64,000 nt of DNA from positions 12,199,869 through 12,263,868 of the forward strand of contig NC_088711.1 of NCBI RefSeq assembly GCF_963576615.1, written 5' to 3'. The notes below the pieces were generated by a model that was not told where the DNA came from, did not search any database, and worked only from the letters and a program-made list of their open reading frames with translations. The stretch is from Watersipora subatra (Eukaryota; Bryozoa; Gymnolaemata; Cheilostomatida; Watersiporidae). This document shows, one piece after another, positions 3,293 to 56,300 of the stretch. A program made the translations under genes and the position numbers. Every line of letters starts with the position of its first letter. Within the stretch, counting starts at the first letter, position 1.

Positions 3293-3660
3293 CTAGCTGT
3301 GCTGCCCGGCGTTGTCCGGGTATTAAATACCAGCTTAAAAACAATGAGAGGTAATAAGAGTTTCCTGCCACTTGCCATTAGCCTGGCACATTGCCAATGG
3401 ATAATTTGAGTAAGCTTACTAATAAGAGCTACCGCTTCTCATGACGTTACGCCATCACATTACATTGTGACGGAGAGCGGTAGCATATTTGCTCTCATAT
3501 ACCGGCATGTATCGCCTAAGGAATATATCAAGCTTGTGTGACTGAATTGATAAGGCGTTGAACTGGTGAAATGGAGGGTCCGAGATCAAATCTTCTGCCA
3601 TATGGATTATGTTTTCCAAGATTTTAAAAGCTATAGCTGGAATACATATAGCTGGCCTAT
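3293..3660 (-). mobile_element. Non-autonomous Helitron, copy 1 (3' end intact, 5' end lost)
   Basis: On the minus strand the 3' end reads ...CCGGGCAGCACAGCTAG/T: a GC-rich hairpin a few bases before CTAG, next to a host T, as in Helitrons. The body shares GCCACTTGCCATTAGCCTGG and AGCTATAGCTGGA with copies 2 and 3. The expected 5' TCTATATA... end is replaced by (TA)n. Confidence 0.6.
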
Positions 3661-3665
3661 ATATA

Positions 3666-3667
<2 letters not shown>

Positions 3668-3716
<49 letters not shown>
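3668..3716. repeat. (TA)n microsatellite left of the ribozyme element
   Basis: About 24 TA dinucleotides directly before the first hammerhead copy. Confidence 0.95.
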
Positions 3717-3718
<2 letters not shown>

Positions 3719-3727
3719 CAGCTCTGA

Positions 3728-3771
3728 GCTGCACTGATGAGGCTTCAATAGCCGAAACAGTAGTCTGTAGC
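3728..3771 (+). ncRNA. Type I hammerhead ribozyme, copy 1 (helix III damaged)
   Basis: Helix I GCTGCA pairs with TGTAGC. The core CTGATGA (3,734-3,740), helix II GGCT/AGCC with a 5-nt loop, then GAAA and GTC (cleavage after C3765) are all present. Helix III is CAGTAG, two bases shorter than copy 2, leaving about one base pair. Confidence 0.8.
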
Positions 3772-3985
3772 ATGAGTATTATGCTCCCTCACTTCGGTTT
3801 GGTTGAGCGCTCTGTGAGAGGTGCGGCACTACTAGCCTTTGTGCAAAGCTCATCACTTTTATGATTTGAGCACTCTGGTGCCAGCACATTGACTTTCTTA
3901 AAGTCTGTGAAGCAACTTAGTTGTTTCGTGGCAGGAAGTCAACTCTCATTGGTAATGGGATTTGTGTCCCTTGCTTAAGCTCTGA

Positions 3986-4031
3986 GCTGCACTGATGAGG
4001 CTTCAATAGCCGAAACAGTACTGTCTGTAGC
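3986..4031 (+). ncRNA. Type I hammerhead ribozyme, copy 2 (intact core)
   Basis: Helix I GCTGCA/TGTAGC (6 bp with one G-U), CTGATGA, helix II GGCT/AGCC, GAAA, helix III CAG-TA-CTG, then TC with the cleavage site after C4025. CAGTACTG is itself a palindrome, so two molecules could share helix III, as known for short-stem hammerheads that act as dimers. Confidence 0.85.

Positions 4032-4033
<2 letters not shown>

Positions 4034-4096
<63 letters not shown>
4034..4096. repeat. (TA)n microsatellite right of the ribozyme element
   Basis: About 30 TA units with one AA interruption, between the ribozyme element and Helitron copy 2. Confidence 0.95.
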
Positions 4097-4099
<3 letters not shown>

Positions 4100-4112
4100 C
4101 ATATATACATAA

Positions 4113-4563
4113 CTAGACGAATGCCCGGCGTTGCACGCGTATTAAAAACAACTTACAAACAGTTGCACGTTAATGTAGTTGCTTGCCATTAGCCTGACAC
4201 ATTGCCAATGGCTAATTTGAGTACGCTACTCGCCTTATTGCTAAACTGACCAATATGAGCCGTGAGAGCAAGCTTTAGTTGTGTAACGCAGAATGCTATG
4301 CCTATTTTAACCAACATAACAGCCCATATGGCCTCAGAATTCAATGCATCTCATGTAGATTAATTGATAACATATTATTTGCTTGATGAACAGGAGGTTG
4401 CAAGATCAAATCCAGCGTGAATCTCAGAGCCGTAAATTGAGTCTCGTAAATCCGCGGATTTGATCTCGTATCTTGAAATCCAGGTATTTCATTCCTAAAT
4501 TTTAATAGCTATAGCTGAACAAACCGAAACACACACAAACTTTGAGATTTAAATATATATAGA
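4113..4563 (-). mobile_element. Non-autonomous Helitron, copy 2 (complete, 451 bp)
   Basis: Read on the minus strand it starts A/TCTATATATATTTAAATCTC and ends ...CCGGGCATTCGTCTAG/T, so both the 5' TC and 3' CTAG ends and the A-T target are present. It has no ORF. A GATCAAATCC box preceded by a tRNA-like stretch lies on the plus strand at 4,350-4,415. Confidence 0.7.
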
Positions 4564-4619
4564 TTGTTTCCACACCCCTATGAACCCAAGTGGGTAGTAA
4601 TGTCTACTAGTTTGAGCAC

Positions 4620-4865
4620 TCATCTACAGAGCTTAGTCGTTCTCAAAAGCGTGTTTTTCTGCAACTGACTTGTGTTGATTGTTGCTGGTATCTGGGCAAG
4701 CCACATTTGATGTGTAGGGGTTACTACACCCAATGCTCCACCGGGATTACTACTGGAATTGCAGTCGTTCTTATATGTCAAGATAGCTGGCTGGTTTGCA
4801 CAGATCTGTTTGTCAGTCTGGATGTAAAAGCCCCAGAGGTCATTTTTATTGACCATGTCAGGTGC
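4620..4865 (-). pseudogene. LINE reverse-transcriptase-type polyprotein, C-terminal remnant
   Basis: The minus-strand frame reads GALGVVTPTHQMWLAQIP, then TSQLQKNTLLRTTKL. This resembles the conserved tail downstream of RT in many animal LINE proteins (GALGxV...WL..I......QK.ALLGTA). It is short, without the RT core. Confidence 0.4.
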
Positions 4866-5152
4866 TTCCCATCAATATTATGGTTTAGTAAGTTTTGGAG
4901 GTTTGGAATGTTAATCATATTCCTCTTCATTAGTGTTTCATTGTCAAATCAACCGAGTGGAATTTAGCCAGCAACTTGCCTATGGTGGCCATGAAGGCTG
5001 TATAAGTTTTTATGCTCTCATCTTTGTTCACTATCTGCTGTACACTTTTGCACCCATCTTTCCCACTATCGCACTATTTTAGCACTACCACACCTTAGGT
5101 GGAGTGCTCCATCCATGGTCAGCAACTTACAAGTTTTATGATGGATTTCTCA

Positions 5153-42120: not shown

Positions 42121-45100
42121 TTACATTTGACACAAGAAGCCTTTTGATTTATAACAGAGAGCGTCTCTCATAACTACAAGCCCATTCTCCTTAGTTATAT
42201 ATGGACAGAAATCAAAGTAACTGGCCATTTTGTTCTTCGACCTGAAGTTTTTCACCTTTATCCAGTATTGTTTTCCTTCAGAAACTTGAGCAGACAACTC
42301 TTTTGATCGTAACTCTTCTTCAGTCATATCCCACAGAGAAAGTCCTAGCTTTTGCTGCAAACAATGTACATACAATATACAATTGAATTATAAATTTATA
42401 CAAATCCCATATAAATGTTGTTCAGAAGGGTGACGCTATAACAGTGATCATTATCTCACAAAACCATGTGACATTCATATATATTCATAACTCCATAACT
42501 CCCAACAAGCCTCAAGTATAGCTGCAAGATCTATCTTTAGTCTAGAATATATCTATTGTCGTTTATGCTTTACATATTATCAATGTTGATGTCTATTGTG
42601 AGATATAAAGTGACTGAAGCTTGTCTCTGAAAAAAATGAAGCATTAAATTTTCCGTGAAGACAATATAATCGGGCATCTACAAACATCTTGCTATATAAT
42701 ATTACTAGCCAAATGCTCGGAATTGCACGGGCATTTAAAAACAGCTTATAAACAGTTACAGGTAATGTAGTTGTTTGCCACTTGCCATTAGCCTGGCACA
42801 TTGTCAATGACTGATTTGAGTTATTTACTATCCGGATTGCTAAACTTACTAATAAGAGCCGTGGGAGCAAGCTTTAGTGACGTTGCAAAAATTCAGAGTG
42901 CTATCCGTATTTTTACCGAAATAATGGCTCACGCCGCCTAATGAATCCATTTCGTAGCTTAATTGGTTAGGCTATTGCCTGGTGAACGGGCGGTAACGAT
43001 ATCAAATCCAGCACAATGCCGATCTTTCATTTCTAGATTTTAATAGCTATAGCTGGAAAGACCGAATGACAGACTTTGAGATTTATACATACAGTATATA
43101 GACTACTATAAACCATTCACTTCTGCAGATAAGGGGCCTATCGAGGATGTAAAAAGGAATTCCGTGGAAACCAGGCACTCGCAAGGGTTAGTTGAAGATT
43201 ATATGATCATTGTAACATAGGATGACATTTGAGGTAAACAAATGTCAGCATACCTGACACTCTAGCTCAGCTATATAAACTGGCCTAAGAGGAAACTCTA
43301 TGGCTCTAATGCAGCTTTTCTTTGTGTTCGCATACTCAAATGGACATGTGAGCTTCCCATTTTTCTTGATTGGTTTCTCTGGAGATTTGGTATTAAGCCA
43401 TACAGGGCTTCTTGTCACTTTGTTATCAACTGAAACAGTATAGTTTATTATATAAAAATGATTCTATAAAATAAATAAATCAACTTTGTAGGTAGTAGCT
43501 AGATAAAAAGTTAGATTCAAAATTTTTTTAAGTGTCAAGGTCAATTATTTCAATAGATGAGCTATTTACATCTGCAGCCAGGCTTTCTTATGCATCTATG
43601 CAATGTGCTGAATAAGCGGGAGGAGCATTCGATGCATAGAACTGAAAATATCAAAAAATAAAACATCAATGTACTCAGAAATTACCTTTATGTCAATTAT
43701 AAAATATATTACCTGATGTTGTTGGTTTAGTAGGTGGATTAGTAGGACAGTCATTGAGCTCAAAATACACCATTCTCGAATCACGAAACAAACGGATTCC
43801 CAAATCTTTAGCTGTTGTTGAACTCAAGTAGCACTGACGTCTAGCTTTCCAATAATCAAATGATCTGCACTCAAACATTGTCTCTTGCATGCAACGAGTC
43901 TTGCACTCCTCGATTGTTAATGAAAAACCAACATCTTCATTAAATCCCGGTATATAAGCATTGTCATACATTTTCCAGGGATCACATGCTGTAAATACAT
44001 GCAGGTCATGAAACGTTAGTAGTATTTCTCAATTCACATCTATATACAATGTGGTTTAGTGATATATATAACTCATCAACATCATGCATACATTAAACTG
44101 TGTGCCTGCAACATACTGTTAGTACTGAAGTAGTTCGTGCATTGTTAGGCAAATCATGGAGTTATCAAGATGTTTATGACATGAGAGAACAACTCTAAGT
44201 TAGGGATAACTATTCTCACCTTTCACTGCACTGATTGTCGTCTTTAGACCTCCGGTTGGATGTGGTCCTTGAATGTTGCTTGTTACAGTGCATGATTTCT
44301 GGTCTCCTGATGGGCAGACACACTTACAGGTATGATCAAGAAAACCTCCATCGATGCATTTTCGGTTGTATTTGTCACAGTTGGCTCGTTCTATGATAAA
44401 ACAAATAAATTTATGACCAGGTTTGTGACAGTAAAAGCGTATGAGAAAATCAAAGTTTAATCCTTATTTGTGTTATCATTTGTGTACCTTAAAGAATGTA
44501 ATTTCACTTTTAACCGATTGAGCCAAACCCATTCACAGCACAGCTAAAAACTGTTAAAAATTAAGCTAAAAATCCTCTATTTATGGTCTATTTATAGACT
44601 TCAACGTATAAAAACAACACGAAACTCCTTTAATAATCTATGCGAACTATAAAGTTCTATTCTCGGACGATGAGTAACGATAGTTGAGTGAAGTAATAAA
44701 TACCTGCACATTTATACATGAGATTTGCAAGCTTCACATCATTGAAACTGAGCCGGTTTCTTTGGCCGATCTTGCTCTGCGCTGATGGATCTCTTGTGAT
44801 CAATTCTCCATAGCTGGGGTAATGCATAATACTGCCGTAGTCATAAGGCACACCGTATGTGTTGATAAAGTCTGTGTCATGCTTCACATACTGTGACTTG
44901 TAATTTGGTGCCACCAAATCCCATTTGATCCTAAAATATGCAATCATAAGTCTAGGAATGTTTCCTATTGGCTCCAGCCAGAGTGTAGTGTTCGAACTGA
45001 ATTCTAGAAAAAGCGAACAACTCCCCAAAAGTAATCTGACTGAAACAGATTAAAGATGAGATTCTCAATAATTATTAAATCAATTATAATAATACTCTGA

Positions 45101-53300: not shown

Positions 53301-56300
53301 CATAATAGCTATGACAATAATCAGAGTCAGTTTGAAGAGAAATCAAATATTGACAGTATGATTACATACATAAAATATTTAGATAAATTTTCGCATTAAT
53401 TGTAATACAATAAGTTGAACTTGAGATACTTCCTGCCTCGTTAAACGGACACTAAAAGCCTAAAACTCCTAGATATGACTAAGCTCTGACAAGTTCATAA
53501 GTAGGGTGCCGAGCAAAACAGTTTTCAAAATTAAACTAGCATATCAACTGTATTATATTATTCTAACTAGTTGTACATGTAGTATCACCTTTCTAACTTG
53601 CATAATAAAGTTAGGAAAGTTTATTAGGGTATGGAGCGTGATATGTTGATTAACACAAACGTTTATCGACACAAAATAACTATTTCAGCTCTAGCAGGTA
53701 CAAGCATAAAAATCTCCGAATACATTGTACTATCACCACAAAGCAATATTTCACAAGAAGACATTGCTGCAATTATGAGTTGGTAGTCAATAATTAGAAT
53801 GAGTGAAATAGACATCTGTATTATTTCAATACACAACGCTGTCAGTGCGCATCAGAGCCTTGGCTATCCTTTTGTAATAACAAATAAACATGACAATTAG
53901 ATGTAAGTGCACTTATCGCTTGGCATGACGATAGTGTCAAATATGTCGCCATTCAAATTATGAGGTCAGTGCTGCTGTTATGCTGCCGAGTTCACGAAGA
54001 GTCTGAACCCTTGGTGAAACAGAGGTGAAGCACAAGAAAACCTCCATAAAGCAAAAACTGCGCATGCTCATGCATATGTAATGTGGAACAGATGTTGATG
54101 ATCTAACATTGTTTACTGCCAAGTTGTCAACAGATCCCTAAAGCAGCACATTTTTCCTGATTGACTCATTAAACTGAGAGTAGAGAGGTGCTGACCTTCG
54201 TATAATCCTATACAAACTGAGACTATAGGATATTTGTTGTTTACCGGTGCAAGCTAGATCAAAATGTCACAAAGACCCCCATTAAAGACAACATCCGCTC
54301 AGGGGAAGCATGCTAATTTGCTCGAAGTTCACAATGCCTAAATAATGACAAATTTATTATATGGAGATATTTACTGCTCTGTTTAATGTATATATTTACA
54401 TGTCTAGATGATATGCTACCACTCTGTCTAATGTATATATTTACATGGCTGAATGATATGCTACCACTCTGTCTAATGTATATATTTACATGTCTGAATG
54501 ATATGCTACCACTCTGTCTAATGTATATATTTACATGTCTAAATTGTATGCTATCACTCTGTCTAATGTATATATTTACATGTCTAAATGATACGCTACC
54601 ACTCTGTCTAATGTATATATTTACATGTCTAAATTGTATGCTATCACTCTGTCTAATGTATATATTTACATGTCTAAATTATATGCTACCACTATGTCTA
54701 ATGTATATATTTACATGTCTAAATTATATGCTATCACTCTGTCTAATGTATATGTTTACATGTCTAAATTATATGCTACCACACTGCCTAATGTATATAT
54801 TTACATGTCTAAATGATATGCTACCACTCTGCCTAATGTATATATTTACATGTCTGAATGATATGCTATCACTCTGTCTAATGTATATATTTACATGTCT
54901 AAATGATATGCTACCACTCTGCCTAATGTATATATTTACATGTCTGAATGATATGCTATCACTCTGTCTAATGTATATGTTTACATGTCTAAATTATATG
55001 CTACCACACTGCCTAATGTATATATTTACATGTCTAAATGATATGCTACCACTCTGCCTAATGTATATATTTACATGTCTGAATGATATGCTATCACTCT
55101 GTCTAATGTATATATTTACATGTCTAAATGATACGCTACCACTCTGTCTAATGTATATATTTACATGTCTAAATTGTATGCTATCACTCTGTCTAATGTA
55201 TATATTTACATGTCTAAATTATATGCTACCACTATGTCTAATGTATATATTTACATGTCTAAATTATATGCTATCACTCTGTCTAATGTATATGTTTACA
55301 TGTCTAAATTATATGCTACCACACTGCCTAATGTATATATTTACATGTCTAAATGATATGCTACCACTCTGTCTAATGTATATATTACATGTCTAAATTA
55401 TATGCTATCACTCTGTCTAATGTATATGTTTACATGTCTAAATTATATGCTACCACTCTGTCTAATGTATATATTACATGTCTAAATTATATGCTATCAC
55501 TCTGTCTAATGTATATATTTACATGTCTAAATGATATGCTATCACTCTGTCTAATGTATATGTTTACATGTCTAAATTATATGCTACCACTCTGTCTAAT
55601 GTATATATTTACATGTCTAAATGATATGCTACCACTCTGTCTAATGTACATATTTACGTGTCTAAATAATATGCTACTATTCTGTCTAATGAATATATTT
55701 ACATGTCTAAATTATATGCTACCACTCTGTCTGATGTATATATTTACATGCCTAAATGATATGCTACCACTCTGTCTAATGTACATATTTACTTGTCTAG
55801 ATGATAAGCTACCACTCTGTCTAATGTATGTATTTACATGTCTAAATAATATACTACCACACTATCTAATGTACATATTTACATGTCTAGATGATATACT
55901 GATTGAATTATCCTTTAACAATTTTTATAATTTGTGCGTTGTGATTAGACAATTTCTTATTATATTATAGAATTATAAAATCCTCAACTAAACTGGTCTC
56001 TACCTTTTTCTTGTAGCATACAGATGGCAGTTTTCTAAATTTTTAAATACTTTTCAGAGCTGAAAAATTTGTTGAAAATAGTAGTGACACAGGTTAATCT
56101 TTCACAATTGGCATGGCTGAGTAAAGGTCTGCTCTTTTTATTATAGAGCTTCCAATTTGGTAACTGATTTTGCCTGAACCTTGTGACAGGGATGAATTTA
56201 GAATGCGTACAAAGCTGTCACCTGAGCATTTGTGTATGATGGAGCTCAGTGTACCGAGTCCCAGCTGAACAAATCTTGTCTACTTAAAAATGTAATGCCA

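Follow-up and report, generated by a model that had tools for sequence, protein, structure and literature searches.

The stretch of DNA considered here, termed the window, comprises 64,000 nucleotides of the bryozoan Watersipora subatra (assembly GCF_963576615.1, contig NC_088711.1, positions 12,199,869 to 12,263,868 of the forward strand) and lies on contig C4 of a 783.7-Mb genome. Here, we focus on a short insertion in the window that carries two hammerhead ribozyme motifs, on the retrozyme family to which it belongs, and on a Penelope-like element (PLE) of the same genome that probably supplies the enzyme moving it. The insertion occupies positions 3720–4034 on the plus strand and its 315 nt correspond to approximately 1.2 turns of a 260-nt circle, as judged from alignment to the unit and from comparison with 73 other arrays. 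On its left lies a (TA)n tract (3658–3717; period 2 and 30 copies according to Tandem Repeats Finder, TRF), which is read as the microsatellite that served as target site, and its 3′ end is fused to a second such tract on the right (4035–4096, also delimited by TRF).

Within the insertion, two type I hammerheads stand in direct orientation with 260 nt between their cleavage positions. Copy 1 (3728–3771) and copy 2 (3986–4031) share the architecture GCTGCA-CTGATGA-GGCT/TCAAT/AGCC-GAAA-helix III-TC-TGTAGC, and 43 bases are identical between them (3720–3762 and 3978–4020); these two are the only matches to a strict type I descriptor in the window, and 200 dinucleotide shuffles give none. Following the hammerhead consensus, cleavage is presumed to occur after GTC at 3765/3766 and again at 4025/4026, which delimits a 260-nt unit (3766–4025); spacings of 259 and 260 nt recur genome-wide. 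The unit has a GC content of 46% and, when read as an endless circle, its longest stop-free runs are 41 codons on the plus strand and 49 on the minus strand. The insertion terminates 9 nt beyond the second cleavage site (4026–4034), where the commonest value in the family is 14 nt. An earlier note on this DNA, made from the letters alone, had described a direct hammerhead pair bounding a 260-nt unit without an open reading frame (ORF) between two (TA)n tracts, and all of this stands.

That note had also credited both copies with the full conserved core and a 6-bp helix I, and here the description holds in part. The core motifs are present in both hammerheads, and in copy 1 helix III has lost 2 nt (GAAACAGTA--GTC), which leaves one C-G and an A-U pair; this variant is rare, with six genomic places including the window locus. 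Helix I does have six pairs, one of them G-U. Copy 2, whose helix III is family-like (CA-GTAC-TG), ends in ATG|TATATA without the GAG that extends helix I and hence, as structure evaluation confirms, without a distal helix I; in the circle this helix does form, by GCUC/GAGU pairing. Because helix III is damaged in one copy and distal helix I is missing from the other, the window locus looks a poor example of its family.

The family itself is large. A genome-wide search, which the earlier note had proposed as a check, was positive: an exact 25-nt core occurs at 1,253 places (0 for its reversed control), a 31-nt piece of the body at 1,738 places with three mismatches or fewer, and 36 of the 40 scored candidates for a 93-nt probe (891 at first look) were full-length matches at 100% identity, with copies dispersed over contigs C1–C11. 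From 78 loci and the window, 74 distinct arrays were delimited, or 69 once probable segmental duplicates (L044 and L047–L050) had been dropped; the loci were selected via the exact core or the core-containing 93-nt probe, so that core conservation is biased upward and short fragments lacking the core are missed. Arrays are 34 to 1,740 nt long before the tail and are built of 259–260-nt units, with a single matched stretch in 42 of the 74, two in 22 and three to seven in the remaining 10. The hammerhead is identical over 45 nt in 83 of 126 instances (non-overlapping loci plus the window), and all 16 columns with more than 15% variation among 52 full units fall at unit positions 14–213, outside the hammerhead (214–260 plus 1–9), a distribution that is partly biased by the seeding. 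Folded as a circle, the unit reaches −83.6 kcal/mol (z −2.8 against 100 shuffles) with 72% of its bases paired; the A and B box patterns tried for an RNA polymerase III promoter gave no match in the retrozyme unit. Hammerhead type, a repeat size within roughly 150–450 bp, GC content, lack of an ORF, dispersal and fold support the assignment of the insertion to a young family of metazoan-type non-LTR retrozymes (LTR, long terminal repeat), and the earlier reading of a retrozyme-like element is thereby upheld: most of the testable features of this class are present, and the Rfam cut-off is not reached.

The ends of the arrays are highly asymmetric. The 3′ end lies shortly beyond the cleavage site in 73 of 74 arrays, and 71 of these 73 ends are within two edits of TGTAGCATG; the end of L055 falls after TGTA, and in L074 the same end follows a deletion in helix III. 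The match to the circle runs past the cleavage site for exactly 14 nt in 42 of the 74 arrays and for 9–13 nt in 17 more. Of the 42, 39 continue with six bases that are all either A or T. Among arrays of at least one full turn, 37 of 38 end just beyond the cleavage site; this constancy is not forced by the seeding, because such arrays hold the core wherever they end. The single case among the 74 that departs from the rule is L061 (1923–2393, minus strand), with a 3′ end at unit position 70 in non-TA sequence. An AT-only 12-mer adjoins the 3′ end in 46 of 74 arrays and the 5′ end in 21 of 74, against a background of 3.4% at random places in the same loci. The 5′ ends are scattered from unit position 1 to 227, and arrays reach almost seven turns; in the 69-array set, 15 of the 5′ ends fall at positions 1–17, close to whole turns (binomial p 3e-5); the other 54 do not differ from a uniform distribution (p 0.12). 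As a side observation, retrozyme copies or ends meet tail-to-tail over a short stretch in L040, L063 and L073 and at C1:64135759–64135798.

Units of one array are also much alike, with an average identity of 99.3% within arrays (32 pairs, nine arrays) versus 92.8% between arrays (1,294 pairs). The six full units of L059 are 100% identical and the nearest other array is 98.1% identical to them; in five of nine arrays the units are closer to their array-mates than to the nearest unit elsewhere, in L035 the two distances are equal, and in L002, L004 and L078 the pattern is reversed, identity within L078 being 85.2%. The near-fixed 3′ end, the scattered 5′ ends and the near-identical units argue for a single start site, a template that spans the junction and, for the most part, the repeated copying of one monomer. 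As far as sequence can tell, the footprint is what target-primed reverse transcription of an RNA spanning the junction would leave in (TA)n, and a circle is the form of this RNA that fits best.

A model of the movement can be divided into five steps. A transcript that runs through a copy would cleave itself at the type I hammerheads, as their motif predicts, and the released 260-nt RNA would be ligated to a circle. An enzyme would then cut (TA)n in the genome, exposing a TA end that would pair with the UAU immediately after the hammerhead, 12–14 nt downstream of the ligated cleavage site; the priming is conjectural, and the near-fixed 3′ end at this place is observed. Reverse transcription would proceed around the circle, covering anywhere between part of one turn and nearly seven, and would stop at scattered places, in keeping with the 5′ scatter and near-identical units that are seen. 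The enzyme would most likely derive from a PLE of the same genome whose pseudo-LTRs contain a type I hammerhead of their own and whose copies likewise end in (TA)n, the partnership being the supposition in this step. Taken with its PLE step, the reading of the locus as one insertion from a young family of non-LTR retrozymes is in our judgement the best explanation overall, and we regard it as probable.

The PLE in question is found at L080 (1–2601), where an uninterrupted ORF of 709 aa lies between two hammerhead repeats and (TA)n follows at the 3′ end; a type I hammerhead is present in each pseudo-LTR, and the direct repeats are 2,460 nt apart. Its hammerhead region occurs at 464 places genome-wide, of which 82 are exact; these 82 form direct pairs 2,460–2,461 nt apart at five sites, and their inverted pairs comprise 20 head-to-head within 4 kb and none tail-to-tail. 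The PLE hammerhead has a distal helix I of 8 bp, a small internal loop, a helix I of 6 bp, a helix II of 4 bp and a short helix III, the same plan as that of the retrozyme. Twelve PLE ends were sampled, defined as exact places without a partner in the list: the CTGAGGA core is kept, and in 12 of 12 the 3′ end CAAATAT is fused to (TA)n about 47 nt beyond the cleavage site, at the point where the longer element continues as CAAATATTTCATACTCC. A PLE end subfamily with an extra GCAC in the helix II region was encountered at L072 (3874–4011, minus strand) and has 10 genomic places at three mismatches or fewer.

The L080 ORF itself matches neither RVT_1 nor GIY-YIG in Pfam. A homologue of it, P0015, matches Pfam GIY-YIG with 26.2 bits (cut-off 22.6) and aligns to L080, which points to a C-terminal endonuclease; such a match at E 0.1 or better was obtained for only two of 32 homologues. 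The predicted model of another homologue, P0016 (67% identical, predicted local distance difference test score 88), has a reverse-transcriptase fold: reverse transcriptases fill the top rows, telomerase reverse transcriptases taking Foldseek rows 1–5 (3du5, E 2.5e-8) and VIA ranks 1–4, with those of diversity-generating retroelements and group II introns tied in Z; the C-terminal part of the model is barely covered by these rows. The top homologue of the ORF comes from the bivalve Solemya velum. A pattern for a PLE reverse-transcriptase motif gave only two chance-like matches in the fetched loci and the window, and the L080 PLE is without the motif. A Pfam GIY-YIG search of the genome, with 16 candidates scored, returned one match, which we take to be the host gene SLX1; absence of PLEs from the genome was considered on the strength of this search and rejected, as the L080 ORF itself has no Pfam GIY-YIG match. 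Pieces of more distant PLE proteins, approximately 34–81% identical to the L080 ORF, lie in L007, L009, L016, L055 and L067, and because of this divergence several PLE families seem to be present.

Since all 12 sampled PLE ends read CAAATAT-(TA)n, the PLE and the retrozyme have in common their target, the plan of the hammerhead and a start shortly after it. Biochemical precedent exists for such a start: in vitro, a lizard PLE initiates internally, cuts AT-rich DNA and extends both strands (PMC11167929), and according to a review Terminons have target-complementary repeats beside a hammerhead (PMC12477314). It is probable, then, that a PLE with its own hammerhead is the enzyme that mobilizes the retrozyme. 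About evenly poised is the more specific proposal that the retrozyme is a parasite of this particular PLE, imitating its layout of hammerhead plus start site, such that the PLE enzyme would start on the circle past the ligated cleavage site and copy up to several turns.

Some observations weigh against the preferred explanation with its PLE step. Opposite-orientation retrozyme pairs within 300 nt comprise three tail-to-tail (L040, L063 and L073) and two head-to-head (L033 and L040), unlike the PLE, and the sequence around the PLE and retrozyme start sites is not significantly alike; a candidate common motif at the two sites was dropped (shuffle p 0.17, with 81 of 2,470 PLE windows scoring equally). 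At the window locus itself, the damaged hammerheads may release little 260-nt RNA. Finally, the covariance check that the earlier note had called for stayed below threshold, with nothing at the gathering score: the best hammerhead scores in a search of 561 bases came from HH9 (16.9 bits, E 0.26) and the type III model (16.7 bits, E 1.2), far under the cut-offs of 52 and 48.5, and a search of the whole window yielded no hammerhead among matches up to E 5. Rfam was set aside as a yes/no test of hammerhead identity, its scores being sub-threshold and not decisive. Nor is the hammerhead the minimum-energy structure of the motif when isolated (−14.7 versus −18.3).

The sub-threshold Rfam scores would suit the idea that the likeness to a hammerhead arose by chance in an unrelated repeat, yet the descriptor is not matched in any of 200 shuffles, the variable columns of the unit all avoid the hammerhead region (with the seeding bias already mentioned), and insertions end right beside the motif; of all the explanations considered, we hold this the most improbable. 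Scarcely more credible is a hammerhead-bearing tandem satellite spread by DNA recombination, without RNA or reverse transcription: it would account for the high uniformity of head-to-tail units within most arrays, but not for copies dispersed over contigs C1–C11, nor for 5′ ends that scatter while a single 3′ end stays nearly fixed and is partnered by (TA)n. A more serious rival retains reverse transcription and takes an uncleaved multimeric transcript as its template, so that ribozyme cleavage is irrelevant to movement. Such a multimer would likewise cross the cleavage site, and the ribozyme of a PLE was dispensable for insertion in vitro (PMC11167929); however, units are mostly near-identical within an array, against an average difference of 7% between arrays (L078 and, in part, L002 and L004 being exceptions), which therefore favours the copying of one monomer and makes the multimer unlikely.

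Somewhat less unlikely, although still well short of probable, is mobilization of the retrozyme by an R2-type long interspersed nuclear element (LINE) of the genome, which also inserts into (TA)n, in place of the PLE. The reverse transcriptase of this LINE matches Pfam RVT_1 and solved R2 proteins, its 3′ end mostly continues into T-rich and (TA)n sequence, and the exact 18-mer at its end occurs 2,147 times; on the first 52 Mb of C1, four of 41 retrozyme clusters lie within 300 nt of this 18-mer, where random placement gives a mean of 0.05. This proximity may nevertheless merely reflect common (TA)n targets. None of the LINE copies in the fetched loci matches a relaxed hammerhead descriptor, and a start inside the RNA beside a hammerhead resembles the PLE. 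Copies of this abundant element, ending in (T)n(TA)n, were seen beside retrozyme insertions at L066 (6525–8192, minus strand), L054, L015 and L071.

With the PLE-driven retrozyme as the preferred explanation, the family can be compared with known systems. Metazoan non-LTR retrozymes are already known, with circles shown in coral, mussel and axolotl, and the discussion of the same paper proposes PLEs, beside LINEs, as a strong candidate for moving animal retrozymes (PMC7229834). The bryozoan family resembles them in its type I hammerhead, in tandem repeats within their range of approximately 170–400 nt, in a GC content below 50%, in being non-coding, and in its highly paired circle, its dispersed copies and the presence of PLEs in the same genome; it differs from them, as they are described there, in its (TA)n target and in a 3′ end nearly fixed at 14 nt beyond the cleavage site. 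For repeats of Nematostella, 15-bp target-site duplications (TSDs) resembling those of LINEs have been reported (PMC4918200). TSDs of metazoan non-LTR retrozymes exceed 4 bp when present; in the bryozoan family, (TA)n on the flanks would mask them. PLEs with hammerheads near or in their pseudo-LTRs share with the family an internal start of reverse transcription that lies shortly downstream of a hammerhead (PMC11167929), an AT-rich target and tandem or partial-tandem copies (PMC11167929, PMC3846280); the retrozyme differs in its 260-nt size, in having no ORF and in lacking the head-to-head excess of PLE inverted repeats. Terminons, which are telomeric PLEs, are giant elements with a telomeric G-rich target, in contrast to the (TA)n target and 260-nt unit found here (PMC12477314). 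The SMalpha and W elements of schistosomes are also short repeats with a type I hammerhead, but these are akin to short interspersed nuclear elements, and the retrozyme unit is without a match to the A and B box patterns tried (PMC8490949). Plant LTR retrozymes are likewise small, non-coding and bounded by hammerheads, and a circular RNA intermediate is a feature of the plant system; unlike the type I topology here, theirs is a type III hammerhead, in elements of approximately 700 nt with an LTR, primer-binding site, polypurine tract and 4-bp TSD (PMC4918200, PMC7761336). In the open texts searched, no fixed 3′ end or (TA)n target was found for an animal retrozyme. Its (TA)n target, a start site mapped over the ligation junction and a defined PLE as partner are apparently new, in that we have not seen them in print.

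The surroundings of the insertion contain further repeats and genes. Two copies of a repeat in the same orientation, with GCCCGGCGTTG near their start, flank the (TA)n tracts at 3294–3657 and 4106–4560, and related stretches turn up in a small number of the loci fetched. Directly after the second repeat copy, and again next to TA-rich DNA, what seems to begin is a divergent relative of the 3′ region of the R2-type LINE (4560–5000, minus strand). One gene of the window has 14 homologues, none of them named, and a COX1 search of the genome gave no match. Farther along the window are a piece of an astacin-type metalloprotease gene (44657–45046, minus strand; Pfam Astacin, E 1.6e-17) and a tandem array of approximately 34 copies of a 45-bp unit (54377–55897), which is open over 359 codons on the plus strand.

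If the retrozyme does parasitize a specific PLE in the manner proposed, the near-fixed 3′ end, lying across the ligation junction, would document in the genome that circles and not linear RNAs are the template. Both the moving enzyme and the form of the RNA are left open for animal retrozymes in the portions of the literature examined. In the genome of W. subatra, a young family whose insertions leave a sharp signature occurs together with a candidate partner that has an uninterrupted ORF of 709 aa, and the model is therefore directly testable.
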